Assembly: GCA_020630275.1 (NCBI GenBank)
Contig: JAHDBU010000001.1
Coordinates: forward strand, 1 to 58,182
Direction of reading: 5' to 3'
DNA: 58,182 bases
Origin: Hellea sp.
GTDB lineage: Bacteria; Pseudomonadota; Alphaproteobacteria; Caulobacterales; Maricaulaceae
Shown piece by piece: positions 16,614 to 43,116 of this stretch. The notes under the pieces were generated by a model. It made no database searches. It was not told the DNA's origin and saw only the letters and a program-made list of their open reading frames with translations. Both the position numbers and the translations under genes were made by a program. Numbering within the stretch: the first letter of the stretch is position 1; every line of letters starts with the position of its first letter.

Positions 16614-18491
16614 ATGCGCAAAGCTCTCTTACTCGCCACCGGCTTGTCCATTCTAACACTCGTGGGATGCAAAGCCGAAACAAAAACCGAAGCACAAGTT
16701 CAAACTCCGCCACCGGCAACCGAGCAAAAAACGGCACCAGTCACCGCCGAAAAAGAAAGCCCGCCAACGCCACAAGAAGCCAAAGAATTTCTTCAAGCGG
16801 CCGAAGAGGAACTCGCCCGCGAAAACGAACTTGTTTACCGGATGGCATGGGTGCAAAACAACTTCATTAATATGGACAGCAATTATGTGCTTCAAAAGCT
16901 TAATGCTGATTATGCCAAAATCGGCACACGGCTGGCCAATGAGGCCAAGCGCTTCAATGACCTCGACTTGCCGGCTGACATGAAGCGCAAGCTCAATGTT
17001 TTGAAAACCGGGAATGTCTTCCCTGCTCCTGACAAAGACGGCGCTGCGGAAAAGCTGTCTGAATTGTCCACTAAACTAGGTTCAATCTACAGCACGGGTA
17101 AGTTCGAATATAAGGACAAAGAACTGACTCTAGGTCAGCTCTCAGACATTATCGCCACATCAAGAGATCCAGAAGAACTTCAGGCTGTCTGGGAAGGTTG
17201 GCGCACGGTCTCCCCGGCCATGAAGGACGGATATGCCAAGATCGTCGATATCGCCAATGAAGGATCCCGCGAGTTAGGGTTCAAAGATACGGGAGACCTC
17301 TGGCGCGGCGGATATGATATGGAAGCCGAGGCCTTTGCCGCCGAAGCCGACCGCCTCTGGGGGCAAGTAAAACCCTTATATGATCAGCTGCATTGTTACG
17401 TCCGAACCGGTCTGAACCAGGAGTATGGCGATGAGGTCGTCCCGCTAGATCAACCGATCCGCGCCGACCTTTTGGGCAATATGTGGGCCCAGAGCTGGGG
17501 CAATGTCTATGATCTGGTCGCCCCCGAAGGCGCTGGCGACGGCGTCGACATCACAAAACTTCTGAAAGAAAACGATTATACCGTGATCGATATGGTCAAA
17601 ACAGCCGAGGATTTTTTCGTCTCGATGGGCTTTGAACCACTTCCTGAGACATTCTGGGAGCGTTCTTTATTCGTCAAACCCGCTGACCGGGAAGTCGCCT
17701 GCCACGCTTCGGCCTGGGATGTAGACAACAAAGAGGATTTACGGATTAAGATGTGCACCAAGATCAATGGCGAAGATTTCATCACAGTTCACCACGAACT
17801 TGGACACAATTTCTATCAGCGCGCCTATATGGATCAGCCTTTTTACTACAAAAACGGCGCCAATGACGGCTTCCACGAAGCCATTGGCGATATGATCGCT
17901 TTGTCGATCACCCCGGATTATCTGGTTGAGATTGGTCTATTGGATGAAGCTAATGTTCCAGGTGAGGACGAAGATATCGCCCTTTTGATGCGTCAGGCTA
18001 TGGATAAAATTGCATTCTTGCCCTTCGGCATCATGATTGATCAATGGCGTTGGAAAGTTTTTTCCGGTGAGTATTCCCCATCTGAATATAATAGTGGCTG
18101 GTGGGAATTACGGGAAAAGTATCAAGGCATACGTCCACCGTCTTCCCGGCCTGGAGATGCTTTCGATCCAGGCGCTAAATATCACATTCCCAATAACGTC
18201 CCTTATATGCGTTACTTCCTGGCGCACATTCTGCAGTTCCAGTTCCACAAGGCTGCTTGCGACATGGTTGGCTATGACGGGCCGCTACACCGCTGCTCCG
18301 TCTACGGCAACAAAGAGGTTGGCAGCAAATTTAACGCCATGATGGAAATGGGCGCCTCAAAGCCTTGGCCCGACGCTCTGGAAGCCTTCACAGGGACCCG
18401 CGACATGGATGGTTCGGCTGTCGTGGAGTATTTTGCACCTTTAATGGCCTATCTTGAGGCTAAAAACGAGGGAAAATCCTGCGGCTGGTAA
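16614..18491 (+). CDS. M2 family dipeptidyl carboxypeptidase lipoprotein
   Basis: The 625-residue protein is a secreted zinc metallopeptidase of family M2, the family of angiotensin-converting enzyme. The lipoprotein signal ends in LTLVGC, followed by a linker rich in Glu, Lys, Thr and Pro. The catalytic site is HHELGHNFYQ near residue 392, and the third zinc ligand is in FHEAIGDM near 418. The upstream WRTVSPAMKDGYAKIV and the downstream GIRPPSSRPGDAFDPGAKYH and YMRYFLAHILQFQ segments are conserved in M2 enzymes. AAGGGG precedes the ATG. It most likely trims peptides in the periplasm. It stands alone in its transcription unit. Confidence 0.92.
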   Translation: MRKALLLATGLSILTLVGCKAETKTEAQVQTPPPATEQKTAPVTAEKESPPTPQEAKEFLQAAEEELARENELVYRMAWVQNNFINMDSNYVLQKLNADYAKIGTRLANEAKRFNDLDLPADMKRKLNVLKTGNVFPAPDKDGAAEKLSELSTKLGSIYSTGKFEYKDKELTLGQLSDIIATSRDPEELQAVWEGWRTVSPAMKDGYAKIVDIANEGSRELGFKDTGDLWRGGYDMEAEAFAAEADRLWGQVKPLYDQLHCYVRTGLNQEYGDEVVPLDQPIRADLLGNMWAQSWGNVYDLVAPEGAGDGVDITKLLKENDYTVIDMVKTAEDFFVSMGFEPLPETFWERSLFVKPADREVACHASAWDVDNKEDLRIKMCTKINGEDFITVHHELGHNFYQRAYMDQPFYYKNGANDGFHEAIGDMIALSITPDYLVEIGLLDEANVPGEDEDIALLMRQAMDKIAFLPFGIMIDQWRWKVFSGEYSPSEYNSGWWELREKYQGIRPPSSRPGDAFDPGAKYHIPNNVPYMRYFLAHILQFQFHKAACDMVGYDGPLHRCSVYGNKEVGSKFNAMMEMGASKPWPDALEAFTGTRDMDGSAVVEYFAPLMAYLEAKNEGKSCGW

Positions 18492-18538: not shown

Positions 18539-19882
18539 ATGGTCCTCGCGCATTCCATAGCTGAAAGCCCGCGCAAATTCCTCGCGGTAAAGTCCGTACT
18601 GATTGTTGCGGATTCTGAAGATAGCCAAACAGAGTTATCCGACCAGTTACATGAATCGGGCTATAATACGGTCAATTCTATATATTCTGGCGATCGTCTG
18701 AAAGGTATTCCCCGTCAGACCCCGGATGCTGTCATAATTCGTCTTTCGATCTATGTCGATCAAGCTAACGCCATCGCCGATGCATTGCGAAATCGTTATG
18801 CTGGCAAAAACATACCGTTAATTGGGATTTTTCCTGAGAACCATGATCAGAACACCACAAATTTTGACTCTACCCTCATAGAACCAGTTTTCCCAAAGCA
18901 AATTGTCCATCGCGTGGCGGCCATGGTGCGCCTTAGCACAATGCAAACTGAGATCACACTTCGGCTAGAGACTCTGGATGAAGATTTTGGGATTGAGCAC
19001 AAGCTAAACGCAGAAGCCTTTGACACAAAATTGACCGTTTTGTTTATTGGCAAAGCCACGCCGGAATTCATGATCATTATCAATGCGCTCGAGCGCAAGA
19101 ATGTGGAAGTCGTGGCGGCGTTTACGTCATTTTCGGCCTTTGACTTTTTGCATGATTTTGTATTTGACGCTGTCGTCATTAATGCACTGAACGGCATGGA
19201 ACCGGGTCTGACGATTGCGCAAACCATGCGGCGAAACTCGGCGCTTTATCATACGCCCGCCCTACTATTAGGTCAAAAGGGTAAAATCCGAAGCCAAACC
19301 GCTTTCGAACATGGTGTTTCCGATATTTTATATTCCGATACAGATGAACGGGATATTCAGGATCGTATTCTTGAGCTCGCGCGTTTTCATCGATTGCATC
19401 GCCAGGTCAGAGCCGAATTTGAAAATATGGGCCACGAGGCTGTATTGGATCCTTGTGGTACCTATTCGGGCACGTTTTTCTCAAAACACCTCAGTCGCCT
19501 GATGGATACATATTCCACGCAAGATCTGCCAGTCTCAGTTTTGACGGCAGAAGTCTGTTTCGATGAAACCGTTACAATGGATGAACAAAGCAAAGCCCTC
19601 AATGAACTGGGCGGCATTATCAAAAACCTTGTGAGGGTTTACGATGTGACAGCTCGTATATCCCGAAATGTTTTCGTCATTGCGTTTCCGGGTCAACCTG
19701 CCTCTAGTTTATCTTCGGTACAACATCGTTTGTCTTCTATCCCCAACAACACTAAGCTCTTGGATGATGGTCCCAGTGGTCAGTCTCGGAAAATTGGTTT
19801 AAACATTGATATCGCTGAGATGAGCCACGGCGTTACGGGCGAAACATGGCTGGCCCAACGCTTAACTATTGACAATAGCTAG
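18539..19882 (+). CDS. PleD-like protein with degenerate receiver and GGDEF domains
   Basis: The 447-residue protein has the layout of PleD: two receiver-like domains (about 18-135 and 163-285) and a GGDEF-like domain (about 298-440). All active positions are altered. The phospho-acceptor place is Arg68 in the first receiver (DAVIIRLS) and Asn215 in the second (DAVVINAL). The GGDEF motif reads SRNVF at 375-379, in the context VTARISRNVFVIAF. It is therefore unlikely to be phosphorylated or to make cyclic-di-GMP, and is more plausibly a scaffold or ligand sensor. Its stop interlocks with that of mfd (CTAG). The domain reading comes from motif alignment by eye. Confidence 0.7.
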   Translation: MVLAHSIAESPRKFLAVKSVLIVADSEDSQTELSDQLHESGYNTVNSIYSGDRLKGIPRQTPDAVIIRLSIYVDQANAIADALRNRYAGKNIPLIGIFPENHDQNTTNFDSTLIEPVFPKQIVHRVAAMVRLSTMQTEITLRLETLDEDFGIEHKLNAEAFDTKLTVLFIGKATPEFMIIINALERKNVEVVAAFTSFSAFDFLHDFVFDAVVINALNGMEPGLTIAQTMRRNSALYHTPALLLGQKGKIRSQTAFEHGVSDILYSDTDERDIQDRILELARFHRLHRQVRAEFENMGHEAVLDPCGTYSGTFFSKHLSRLMDTYSTQDLPVSVLTAEVCFDETVTMDEQSKALNELGGIIKNLVRVYDVTARISRNVFVIAFPGQPASSLSSVQHRLSSIPNNTKLLDDGPSGQSRKIGLNIDIAEMSHGVTGETWLAQRLTIDNS

Positions 19883-22800
19883 CCAGTATTAAGAGCGTTC
19901 AAAGTCTTTACAGCCAATTTGACGCGCGCGTCTGCTTTTTCTAACTGACCTGCAATAAAAATCGTCTGATCTGGCCGCAATCTCCACCCCTTGTTTTGCG
20001 TGATCGCATTGAGAATAACCGAAGGATCGGAAATACCCTCATGGCGCATGGTCACTACAAGCCCCCGAGGTCCTGCATCAATCTTAGCAACTTGAACCTT
20101 TCGACATAAACGTTTGATTTTCATGACATTTAGAAGCGAGCCTACTTCTTGGGGTAATTTCCCAAACCTGTCGATGAGCTCAGCCGCTAGGGCTTCGGAG
20201 GCTTGATCGTCTTCAATCTCGGAAATCCTGCGATAAGTGGCCAGACGCAGATTCAGGTCTTGGATATAATAGTCAGGAATAAGAACAGCGATACCCAGAT
20301 TGACGCTGGGTGACCAGGACTGATCTTTGACTTCTTTGTCATCACGGAGCTCGGCCACCGCCTCTTCCAGCATATGCTGATAAAGCTCAACGCCGACATC
20401 TTTGATATAGCCAGATTGCTCCTCTCCCAATGGGTTGCCGCCTCCCCTCATATCCAAATCATGACTCGCTAATGTAAACCCAGCCCCAAGCGTATCAAGA
20501 GATTGCAGAATTTTAAGACGTTGCAGAGCTCCCGCAGTCGCTACATGCTCATCCGGCATGGTGAGATAGGCATAGGCTCGGATCTTGGAACGTCCAACCC
20601 GGCCACGCATTTGGTAGAGCTGCGCAAGGCCAAACCGATCCGCCCGGTAGACAATCATGGTATTGGCACTTGGAATATCAATGCCGCTCTCGATGATGGA
20701 GGTCGACAATAGCACATCATATTGTCCATCATAAAAGGCGGTCATAATGTCTTCCAGGTCACGGCCAGGCATCTGCCCATGAGCTGTGATAAATTTCACC
20801 TCGGGCACATCTTCGCGCAAAAAATCCTCAAGCTTGGGCAGGTCGGCAATACGCGGTGCCACAAAGAAACTCTGTCCGCCGCGGTATTTTTCCCGCAAAA
20901 CGGCTTTTCTCACCGAGACCGGATCAAAGGGTGACACATAAGTTCGTACGGCCAAACGGTCGACGGGTGGTGTGGCAATCAATGATAAATCTCGAATACC
21001 AGACAATGCCATTTGAAGTGTACGCGGTATCGGCGTAGCCGTCAGGGTCAGCACATGCACATCCGCCCGCAAAGCTTTGAGACGTTCTTTATGAGAGACC
21101 CCAAATCTCTGCTCCTCATCAACAATCAACAAACCGAGATTTGCGAAGGAAATTGATTTGGCCAATAACGCGTGGGTCCCAATGACGATATCGCATCGCC
21201 CATTGGCGATTTCTTCTTTCGTCGCATTAGCTGATTTTGGCGACACCAGACGCGATAGTTGACGAACGTGGACCGGCAGGCCTCGAAACCGTTCGGAAAA
21301 TGTTTTGAAGTGTTGACGGGCCAGAATAGTGGTCGGTGCCACAATCGCGACTTGCTGCCCGCTCATGACCGCCGCAAAGGCCGCGCGCAGGGCCACCTCT
21401 GTTTTCCCAAAACCCACATCACCGCAAATCAGCCGATCCATGGGCTTTCCGCTGCCCAGATCTTCGAGTACATCCTCAATAGCGGATAGTTGATCGTCAG
21501 TCTCCACATAAGGGAAACGGGCACAAAATTCGTTATAATCCTGGGTCGGCACGTCGATGGGATCAGCGGACCGCAGAGCCCGCTTGGCAGCAATCTTGAT
21601 CAACTCTGCCGCCATATCTTGAAGGCGTTTCTTGGCCTTGGCCTTACGCGATTGCCAGGCAACACCGCCCAACCGGTCCAGATTGACCAGATCGCCAGCT
21701 GCCCCGTAGCGTGACAAGAGCTCGATATTCTCTACTGGCAGATAGAGCTTGGCGCCGTCTGCATATTCCAGATCAAGGCAATCATGAGGCGCTGACTGAA
21801 CATCCAGTGTCTTGAGCCCAAGATAACGCCCCAGACCATGATCGATATGAATTATCAGATCACCCGGTTGTAGCGCAGAGGCCTCTGAAATGAAGTTCTT
21901 GGCTTTGCGGCGGCGGCTGCGATTGACCAGGCGGTCACCCAGAATGTCTTGTTCCGAGAGGATGCGCAGATCACCAAACTCAAATCCCTGCTCCAGCGGT
22001 AAGGTTACCCGGCGCAGAGACCCTTTGGGCAATGCGAGCAGATCTGGGCCCCGTTGCTCTTCTGGTAGCACAAGATCGTGATCCTCAAACACGCTAGACA
22101 TGCGCTCGGACGAGCCTTCAGTCCAGGATGCGATGATTACGGTTTTACCCGCATCGCGTTCCGCTTTGACATGATCCACAACAGCATCAAAAACGTTGAC
22201 GCCTTCAGTCTTGCGTTCATTAGAAAAATTGCGGCCGGATCGCCCCTTAAAATCAATCAGATTATCCCTTTCGGGCGGAATGAATGGTGAATGCCAGCGT
22301 TTGCGGGATGCGGCGGCATCTATATGCTCAGGATATAAGTAAAGGTCGTCAAATGGTAATGGACGATATTGACCTTCCGTTGCACCGCCACGTTTTTCCT
22401 CACTAGCGGCTGTATGGGCTGTTCGGGTTTCATGCAGATCCAGGACGAGGTCTCGGCGTTCAAACATGGCCTCTTTAGCCAGGCTATCAAATGCCACCAA
22501 GGCACTTTCTGGCAGGTAATCAAAAACCGTTTCCAGTTTTTCAAAAAACAGTGGCAGGAAATGTTCAATCCCTTGAGGCCTTATACCCTCGCTAACGGAG
22601 GCATAGATCGGGTCTTTACTGGTCCCACCTCCAAATTTAGCCACATAGGCCCGGCGGAAATTCGCTTTAGCGTCATCATTGAAGAAAACTTCCCCGACAG
22701 GCGCAAGGTCAATTGAGCTGATCTGCCGAGTGGTGCGCTGTGTCTCAACGTCGAAATGGCGAATATTTTCCAGCTCATCTCCAAAGAAATCCAGGCGGAC

Positions 22801-23340
22801 AGGCTCACCTAATGCAGGTGAGTAAATATCCACCAATCCTCCGCGGATGGCGTAATCCCCCGGTTCGACGACCGTAGAGGCCCGGCTATAGCCGTTCATC
22901 ATCAGGTATTTTTCAAGTTTCTCGCGAGCCAATGATTGCCCGGCCTTGGCACTAAAACCAGACTCGGCGATCACTGACTTAGGTGGCACACGCTGGGAAA
23001 CGGCACTGACTGTAGATACGATGATCAATGGCGCATCGGCCTTAACCTGGGTCAACAAATAGAGCGCGGCACTTCGACGGGCGGCAATCAGACGGCTCGG
23101 AGATATGCGGTCATAGGGCAGACAGTCCCAGGCTGGCAGAGATACAACGGGGATATCTGGCGCAAAAAAACGGCAGGCGGCTTGAAAAGCGGCGGCGCGG
23201 CTATCGTCGCGGGCCACAAACACCGCCGGACGTCCGTCTTTGCGTACCGCGCGGGTAAAGATAATCGCGTCCAGCCCTTCTGGTAGACCCGCTGCCGTCA
23301 GTTCATCCTCGGCAGATATATATCTTTGGATTTGCAGCAT
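19879..23340 (-). CDS. mfd: Transcription-repair coupling factor
   Basis: Mfd removes stalled RNA polymerase from lesions and recruits UvrA. The 1153 residues follow the family order: UvrB-like module (about 1-340), a variable linker, the RNA polymerase interaction domain (GDLIIHIDHGLGRYLGL, about 495-560), the translocase with Walker A GDVGFGKTEVALRAAF near 640 and DEEQRFGV near 740, the TRG region, and the C-terminal TRCF domain. Its ATG shares one base with the sdhE stop, so translation of the two is coupled. The order recG / sdhE-mfd is conserved in alphaproteobacteria. Confidence 0.97.
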   Translation of the reverse strand: MLQIQRYISAEDELTAAGLPEGLDAIIFTRAVRKDGRPAVFVARDDSRAAAFQAACRFFAPDIPVVSLPAWDCLPYDRISPSRLIAARRSAALYLLTQVKADAPLIIVSTVSAVSQRVPPKSVIAESGFSAKAGQSLAREKLEKYLMMNGYSRASTVVEPGDYAIRGGLVDIYSPALGEPVRLDFFGDELENIRHFDVETQRTTRQISSIDLAPVGEVFFNDDAKANFRRAYVAKFGGGTSKDPIYASVSEGIRPQGIEHFLPLFFEKLETVFDYLPESALVAFDSLAKEAMFERRDLVLDLHETRTAHTAASEEKRGGATEGQYRPLPFDDLYLYPEHIDAAASRKRWHSPFIPPERDNLIDFKGRSGRNFSNERKTEGVNVFDAVVDHVKAERDAGKTVIIASWTEGSSERMSSVFEDHDLVLPEEQRGPDLLALPKGSLRRVTLPLEQGFEFGDLRILSEQDILGDRLVNRSRRRKAKNFISEASALQPGDLIIHIDHGLGRYLGLKTLDVQSAPHDCLDLEYADGAKLYLPVENIELLSRYGAAGDLVNLDRLGGVAWQSRKAKAKKRLQDMAAELIKIAAKRALRSADPIDVPTQDYNEFCARFPYVETDDQLSAIEDVLEDLGSGKPMDRLICGDVGFGKTEVALRAAFAAVMSGQQVAIVAPTTILARQHFKTFSERFRGLPVHVRQLSRLVSPKSANATKEEIANGRCDIVIGTHALLAKSISFANLGLLIVDEEQRFGVSHKERLKALRADVHVLTLTATPIPRTLQMALSGIRDLSLIATPPVDRLAVRTYVSPFDPVSVRKAVLREKYRGGQSFFVAPRIADLPKLEDFLREDVPEVKFITAHGQMPGRDLEDIMTAFYDGQYDVLLSTSIIESGIDIPSANTMIVYRADRFGLAQLYQMRGRVGRSKIRAYAYLTMPDEHVATAGALQRLKILQSLDTLGAGFTLASHDLDMRGGGNPLGEEQSGYIKDVGVELYQHMLEEAVAELRDDKEVKDQSWSPSVNLGIAVLIPDYYIQDLNLRLATYRRISEIEDDQASEALAAELIDRFGKLPQEVGSLLNVMKIKRLCRKVQVAKIDAGPRGLVVTMRHEGISDPSVILNAITQNKGWRLRPDQTIFIAGQLEKADARVKLAVKTLNALNTG

Positions 23341-42189: not shown

Positions 42190-43116
42190 ATGAATATCAG
42201 ATATTTTATGATCCCCGCCCTGACGCTGGCTCTGATTGGATGCAAAGACAAGTCTGAACCCGTTGAAGTCAACATCAATCCGGAACCAGATGTCAAGATC
42301 TCCAGCTCTGTTGACGTTAAGGCCACCTCTCACCTATTTCCCAAAGAGCAGATCATCAAAGCGACGATCGCACCGAAATCGGGAATGCGAGCCTTTTCAA
42401 GCAAAATCCTACTTTTGTCAGACTCGGGAAAACTGTACGCAACAGACACGGCTTTTCCTCAGTTAGAGTTAATCCACGCGGGCCCTATTACCGACATTTC
42501 TGGTTTCTATCTTAGCGATAACATCTCAGGTTTTCTGGCCCAGGAGGCTGAAAACAAGATCAGTGCCTATCTCGATACAGATGCCGGAAAGTTTGATGTG
42601 ATACCTCTTGAAGGCCTACCCTCCGGGGTTGGCTTCTGCGAAGACATGATCAAGCGGCCCGGGCTAATCACTTTATCACTTCCCGACAGCAAAACCACTT
42701 TTAGCCTTTCCTTCAAGGAAGAGAGGTTAACGCTCAGCGCTGTGGAAGACGGACAGGATTGCGGCAAAGCTCGGCAGTTCGCATTGACAAAACAAGAAGG
42801 CGGTACATCATTACTAGCAGAGAAAACCGCTGCACAAATTGCGGAACAGCTTGCCGGCAGCAAAATATACGAGACTTTTATCCTCTCATCTGGCCTGGCC
42901 GTTCAACACGGGCAGACGGCCAAAGGGGTTAAGGTCATCGATGGCTTGAGTATTGATGGTCTTTCGACTTCGCAATGGACCTATTCGACAAGTCAGCCTC
43001 TGGGCAACACGTTCAATGCCGGAGTCACATTAATTCGCGGCGATGACGAAAACCGGATCGTCATGATTGCGAATGATTACCTTGCCCGGACAGTATTTAG
43101 GCCCAACGACAACTAA
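42190..43116 (+). CDS. Predicted lipoprotein, unknown function
   Basis: I do not recognise this 308-residue protein. The signal peptide ends in the lipobox LALIGC, followed by an acidic linker and a domain that looks mainly beta (repeated strands such as KILLLSDSGKLYATD and SGFLAQEAENKISAYLD), perhaps a propeller. Two cysteines (in GFCEDM and DCGKAR) could form a disulfide. A phytase-like or surface propeller domain is possible but not demonstrable here. It converges on ctaA with five bases between stops. Confidence 0.7.
   Translation: MNIRYFMIPALTLALIGCKDKSEPVEVNINPEPDVKISSSVDVKATSHLFPKEQIIKATIAPKSGMRAFSSKILLLSDSGKLYATDTAFPQLELIHAGPITDISGFYLSDNISGFLAQEAENKISAYLDTDAGKFDVIPLEGLPSGVGFCEDMIKRPGLITLSLPDSKTTFSLSFKEERLTLSAVEDGQDCGKARQFALTKQEGGTSLLAEKTAAQIAEQLAGSKIYETFILSSGLAVQHGQTAKGVKVIDGLSIDGLSTSQWTYSTSQPLGNTFNAGVTLIRGDDENRIVMIANDYLARTVFRPNDN

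Follow-up and report, generated by a model that had tools for sequence, protein, structure and literature searches.

In the stretch of Hellea sp. DNA analyzed here (58,182 nucleotides, hereafter the window), a 447-codon gene raises an intriguing question. Why would a protein built like the cyclase PleD keep its frame intact after losing its catalytic loop and its receiver aspartates? The original prediction regarded it as a PleD-like protein in which every signaling residue is replaced and which is under selection as a structural or ligand-binding element, for instance a scaffold for polarity or cell cycle control. Our analysis points, with a probability of about 0.9, to an ortholog of Caulobacter PopA, a catalytically dead PleD paralog. 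Five things are observed directly: the protein is orthologous to PopA, its cyclase site is lost, its inhibitory site (I-site) for cyclic-di-GMP is retained, it is conserved in relatives, and PleD, CtrA, CpdR-like, RcdA-family and PopZ-family genes lie elsewhere in the genome. Loss of the catalytic residues is thus probably normal for a known family and not the mark of a novel protein type; to treat the gene as a PleD-like oddity overlooks this named family, whose members are known for such an appearance.

The frame is single and open from ATG to TAG (18539-19882, forward strand, 447 amino acids), as had been predicted. Its features are as follows.

18539..19882, + strand: probable popA ortholog, 447 aa, REC1-REC2-degenerate GGDEF (ORF, reciprocal matches, tree, structure model)
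18590..18943, + strand: first receiver domain, aa 18-135, a pseudo-receiver; approximate bounds (secondary structure of the model, PhoB-type profile match)
18740..18742, + strand: R68, replacing the phospho-acceptor Asp of the first receiver (alignment)
19028..19408, + strand: second receiver domain, aa 164-290; approximate bounds (Pfam Response_reg at 179-277, lowest dN, structure matches)
19181..19183, + strand: N215, acceptor position of the second receiver, where PleD proteins vary too (alignment)
19430..19879, + strand: degenerate GGDEF domain, aa 298-447; approximate bounds (Pfam, model, structure matches)
19634..19645, + strand: cyclic-di-GMP I-site RVYD (R366, D369), retained (same in 94/94 PopA-like rows)
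19661..19675, + strand: degenerate A-site SRNVF, aa 375-379, at the position of GGEEF in PleD (alignment)
19727..19729, + strand: R397, third I-site residue, equivalent to PleD R390, retained (same in 94/94 PopA-like rows)
19879..23340, - strand: mfd, transcription-repair coupling factor, the convergent neighbor by which the popA locus is recognized in relatives (locus comparison)

Sequence profiles alone place this protein poorly. Its Pfam matches are weak and both under the Pfam cut-offs (Response_reg, 1.2e-6; GGDEF, 0.0045), a PhoB-type profile matches aa 18-149, and the NCBIfam model of PleD, PRK09581, gives 78.9 bits against a cut-off of 474; family placement is out of reach of Pfam and NCBIfam alone. 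A sequence search of the PDB (E up to 1) returned 23 sequences, mostly receiver domains, and PopA was not among them. The predicted structure (mean pLDDT 82.8, pTM 0.78) is more telling. Foldseek puts PleD chains in all of the first ten places (1w25, E 1.8e-22), and a second structure aligner matches PleD over model residues 16-447 with Z about 21 and a large rmsd, probably because the domains are placed differently. The receiver-receiver-GGDEF order therefore comes from the model and its PleD matches, Pfam alone being sub-cut-off, and the fold implied by the original prediction is the one obtained.

Which member of the PleD family is it? A scan of named genomes, from which the best 80 of 273 related loci were kept, included Caulobacter vibrioides DSM 9893, whose locus L214 we call PopA from its features, position and the literature. 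The best match of the window protein in that genome has an E value of 1.4e-53 and the next one 0.12; in the opposite direction the C. vibrioides protein finds the window protein at 6.6e-54 and the PleD of the same genome at 2.1e-7. The two are reciprocal best matches with 32% identity over 373 aligned amino acids. In a quick 64-row tree, one branch with support of 100 (SH-aLRT only) parts 47 PopA-like from 17 PleD rows, the former comprising 45 of the 94 PopA-like rows first collected plus two named C. vibrioides rows, of which one duplicates L112. The PopA-like group spans five families.

Gene order agrees with this placement. Mfd lies within the DNA read at 75 of 95 distinct PopA-like loci (36/46, 7/7, 24/25 and 8/17 by collection, repeats removed, the flank often being only 1.5 kb) and is convergent with the gene in 75/75. 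The order in C. vibrioides L214 is popA(+), DsbA-like(+), mfd(-). In family f4, no Mfd was found near the popA-like gene in 5/5 loci. The DsbA-like, CoA-transferase-like and ssb genes of L214, L293, L297 and L299 were named by eye from sequence. Upstream of popA in the window, a gene of the Peptidase M2 (angiotensin-converting-enzyme) family occupies 16614-18491, and such a gene adjoins popA in 16 of the 46 loci L001-L046. Elsewhere in the window, a 308-aa frame at 42190-43116 has no Pfam match at 1e-5.

If the gene is PopA, what would it do? Published work describes Caulobacter PopA as a paralog of PleD whose A-site is degenerate and whose RxxD I-site survives and binds cyclic-di-GMP (PMC12564702, PMC10333796, PMC3764195), as a polarly localized protein, and as one that delivers CtrA to ClpXP (PMC3764195, PMC8973945, PMC11519897); the text of PMC2877005 does not mention PopA. 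By analogy, PleD and other cyclases would make cyclic-di-GMP, which would most likely be bound by the I-site residues R366, D369 and R397. Ligand binding would then drive the dimer form of PopA and its recruitment to the pole, where PopA, with RcdA and CpdR, would hand CtrA and similar substrates to ClpXP at the swarmer-to-stalked (G1-S) step. Ligand binding, localization and CtrA delivery are all likely for the window protein, judging from the Caulobacter literature. The ligand-binding and cell cycle role first suggested for it pointed in the right direction, PopA being a polar cyclic-di-GMP effector, although its premise that all signaling had been lost fails on the intact I-site.

The genome carrying the window, 77% complete, encodes a PleD with GGEEF (locus L062 on contig C172; 532.5 bits, cut-off 474), CtrA (427.2 bits, cut-off 350) and a CpdR candidate whose best match is CpdR at 157.7 bits, under the model cut-off of 180. 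It also matches PF07323 and PF10691, which we take to be the RcdA and PopZ families; among 14 control genomes, these two match only C. vibrioides. Across genomes, RcdA-family matches occur in 59/61 and CpdR-candidate matches at 1e-15 in 60/61, those of G004 and G046 being only a long, kinase-length frame. The partners and PopA do not always travel together. PopA is present in G011, which has no RcdA-family match, in G026, which has no CpdR match at 1e-15, and in G046 with its kinase-length CpdR match only. Four genomes (G045, G049, G059 and G060) have RcdA and CpdR matches with PopA not found, the best matches in G045 and G049 being PleD.

The mfd locus was also inspected in genomes where PopA is missing. 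In G045 and G049 (L299 and L297), a CoA-transferase-like gene sits immediately next to mfd, a place taken in C. vibrioides by popA and the DsbA-like gene, and popA looks cleanly lost. G004, of the same genus as the window (L293 and L270) and about 90% complete, lacks PopA and an RcdA-family match and has CpdR only at kinase length; it retains CtrA at 94% identity and an intact mfd flank with ssb-like and DsbA-like genes, as if the members of the adaptor branch had been lost together. G007 has no PopA match, but there the contig with mfd stops on the relevant side, making the absence uninformative.

A PopA by descent need not do the job of Caulobacter PopA. The protein could still bind cyclic-di-GMP and serve mainly another function, for example in flagella or polarity, instead of delivering CtrA to ClpXP. 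Some observations speak for this. The N-terminal part of PopA contacts RcdA, and PopA has a second role as a monomer with SmrF, according to PMC8973945; it is the N-terminal receiver that evolves fastest (dN 0.43-0.56 in 8/9 congener pairs). With identity to C. vibrioides PopA at about 31-32% and the first-receiver Asp changed to Arg, partner contacts may differ from those of C. vibrioides PopA. The last residues of CtrA itself are Leu/Met/Ile-Ser-Ala at 13 of the 30 loci read (L260-L272, the clade of the window, including its own CtrA), and Ala-Ala at 12 of the other 17 (L273-L289); because of the Ser-Ala end, the C-terminal degron, and with it CtrA degradation, may differ in this clade. Against another main function, RcdA-family, CpdR-like, CtrA and PopZ-family genes, together with PleD, are all in the genome, completing the set of partner genes expected of PopA. 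Moreover, G004, the sole congener with an intact mfd flank and no PopA, is also without an RcdA match and a free-standing CpdR, although this is one case. We therefore consider a changed main function possible but doubtful and retain CtrA delivery as the likelier role of this PopA.

The receivers themselves deserve a closer look, as both phospho-acceptors were originally described as lost. Arg68 (in DAVIIRLS), Asn215 (in DAVVINAL) and SRNVF are indeed found by alignment at aa 68, 215 and 375-379. For the first receiver the description stands: Asp is present in 17/17 PleD rows and in 61/94 PopA-like rows, including the C. vibrioides gene, versus 0/18 of the loci L001-L018, and the quick tree requires a minimum of 5 gains or losses of Asp at this position. 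As judged from the alignment, the absence in the clade of the window is a real loss, and because of it this receiver most likely functions there without being phosphorylated. We take the first-receiver Asp of C. crescentus PopA to be dispensable, and R357 to be a residue number of that same protein. The second acceptor is a weaker case, since the 17 PleD rows themselves have S in 8, D in 5 and N in 4. The second receiver is also the most constrained part of the protein. It has the lowest dN in 9/9 congener pairs, and in the closest congener (84% identity; whole-gene dN 0.100, dS undefined or saturated by NG86), dN is 0.117 in the first receiver, 0.032 in the second and 0.115 in the GGDEF domain. 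Identical positions among 8 congeners number 61/131 in the second receiver, 21/125 in the first and 28/150 in the GGDEF domain. Within the second receiver (window 19028-19408) lies a conserved AAFTSFSAFDFLH-type stretch; this domain is perhaps an unmapped partner surface.

Has the GGDEF domain lost its signal altogether? On the catalytic side, yes. SRNVF replaces the GGEEF found in 17/17 aligned PleD rows, just as ATEVF does in L214, and a GGDEF-like motif occurs in 0/94 PopA-like rows, so that the orthologs do not retain the catalytic residues either. The metal and base residues of the PleD from the same genome, D324, D326 and N332, correspond to E, C and T. The window protein thus has the degenerate A-site of PopA and neither of the PleD hallmarks, a GGDEF/GGEEF active site and the first-receiver Asp. 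On the binding side, RVYD (366-369) is an RxxD I-site at PleD spacing, five residues ahead of SRNVF, and in the alignment R397 falls on the third arginine of the I-site; the PleD I-site residues contributed by one chain are R359, D362 and R390 in an excerpt of PMC7288161. The claim that every signaling residue is replaced is contradicted by this intact triad. At the sequence level, the site that makes the signal has gone and the I-site that binds it remains, and the protein probably still binds cyclic-di-GMP.

Conservation of the triad speaks against a pure scaffold with no ligand and no signaling input; a scaffold was among the roles originally proposed. Such a scaffold fits the absence of GGDEF and of an Asp in the first receiver, but it would not require a conserved I-site. 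The triad (R, D, R) is present in 94/94 of the PopA-like rows first collected, makes up three of the only 9 columns at least 98% identical across them, and is invariant in a 51-row alignment of the window protein and 50 of the 80 named loci. These 94 rows were the best-scoring matches of the first collection and are therefore biased toward kept I-sites. As a check on this bias, 40 further matches, nearly all lower-scoring, were fetched; one (L326) repeats L098, and the remaining 39 comprise 7 PleD-type sequences with GGEEF and 32 degenerate ones. The triad is complete in 29 of these 32; the exceptions, L327, L334 and L335, all belong to genus g44 of family f5 and read R-D-N, K-D-K and N-D-K, the third place being alignment-dependent. 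Excluded before the 94-row count were the repeats L071-L074 and L108, the wrong-frame L078+ and two mis-extracted L090 rows; L076, whose frame is over-long, and the 17 PleD rows also stand outside it. The named C. vibrioides loci L188 and L214 repeat L119 and L112, giving 94 rows rather than 96, and 12 later-collected loci repeating earlier genes were left out. Near-copies remain among the rows, so row counts are not independent events. A ligand-free scaffold is accordingly improbable, and a PopA that senses cyclic-di-GMP is preferred.

The degenerate catalytic and receiver residues and the low Pfam scores might equally suggest a decaying pleD duplicate or a pseudogene. Yet frames are open in relatives, and the PopA-like proteins form one group across five families. 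Whole-gene dS by NG86 is undefined in 8/9 congener pairs, the ninth (L001-L006) having dS of 2.6 and omega of 0.155; Caulobacter pairs were therefore used for omega. It ranges from 0.014 to 0.107 in 20 Caulobacter pairs, the top 20 by identity among 25 chosen sequences, with sequences shared between pairs. Together with a dN of only 0.10 and saturated dS in the closest congener, these values bear out the predicted selection on the gene, indicate purifying selection that is strongest in the second receiver, and leave decay very little chance. An active diguanylate cyclase whose A-site is merely atypical, a reading for which the modeled GGDEF fold speaks, has next to none, given SRNVF in place of GGEEF and the changed metal and base residues.

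Where PopA may be losing its I-site is family f5. Besides the three exceptions above, two mfd-adjacent proteins, both missed by the profile search, occupy the PopA position.

L294:4954-6240, - strand: PopA-position protein of G056, mfd-adjacent, weak tblastn match (E 4.6e-7)
L296:218-1465, + strand: PopA-position protein of G048, mfd-adjacent positional candidate, homology weakly supported

They have QPAD and SPLD, respectively, at the RxxD position and are 26% identical to each other. The PopA-type proteins L334 (G200) and L335 (G162) have KDTD and NDTD there, and in L327 (G158) only the third I-site residue is changed. These f5 proteins are candidate ligand-blind PopA proteins, and those of G056, G048, G200 and G162 come nearer to the original description than the window protein does. 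It is conceivable, though we rate it as rather unlikely, that PopA has been losing its inputs stepwise across the order to which Caulobacter and the source of the window belong: the first-receiver Asp in the clade of the window and the I-site in f5. If this is true and CtrA delivery persists in f5, cyclic-di-GMP control would have been removed from a cell cycle step while the adaptor was kept.

An apparent oddity thereby becomes a named gene, and a well-supported, diverged PopA is added to the family. What PopA seems to need is the I-site triad, which almost all copies read retain; the cyclase site has gone, and in many copies so has the Asp of the first receiver. This conservation pattern predicts which inputs matter, and f5 is where the last of them may be lost.

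How does the window protein compare with known systems? It shares with PopA of Caulobacter crescentus/vibrioides (CC1842, CCNA_01918) the REC-REC-GGDEF order, the dead A-site, RxxD and the third arginine, a reciprocal best match, a locus near mfd and the partner genes in the genome. It differs in sequence, at about 31-32% identity, in having Arg where Caulobacter PopA has the first-receiver Asp, and in gene order, popA and mfd having no intervening gene in the window whereas in L214 the DsbA-like gene separates the two. Strong divergence within PopA is on record: HNE_1984 of Hyphomonas neptunium is listed as the popA homolog of CCNA_01918, apparently with 25% identity and a reciprocal best match, in an excerpt of PMC7200025. 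PleD has the same fold, domain order and I-site residues, but its GGEEF, metal and base residues and first-receiver Asp are all absent from the window protein. PelD, according to the review PMC10333796, is likewise a dead GGDEF protein reused as a cyclic-di-GMP receptor through an RxxD I-site; unlike the window protein, it is a Pseudomonas membrane protein with a GAF domain, and it evolved separately.
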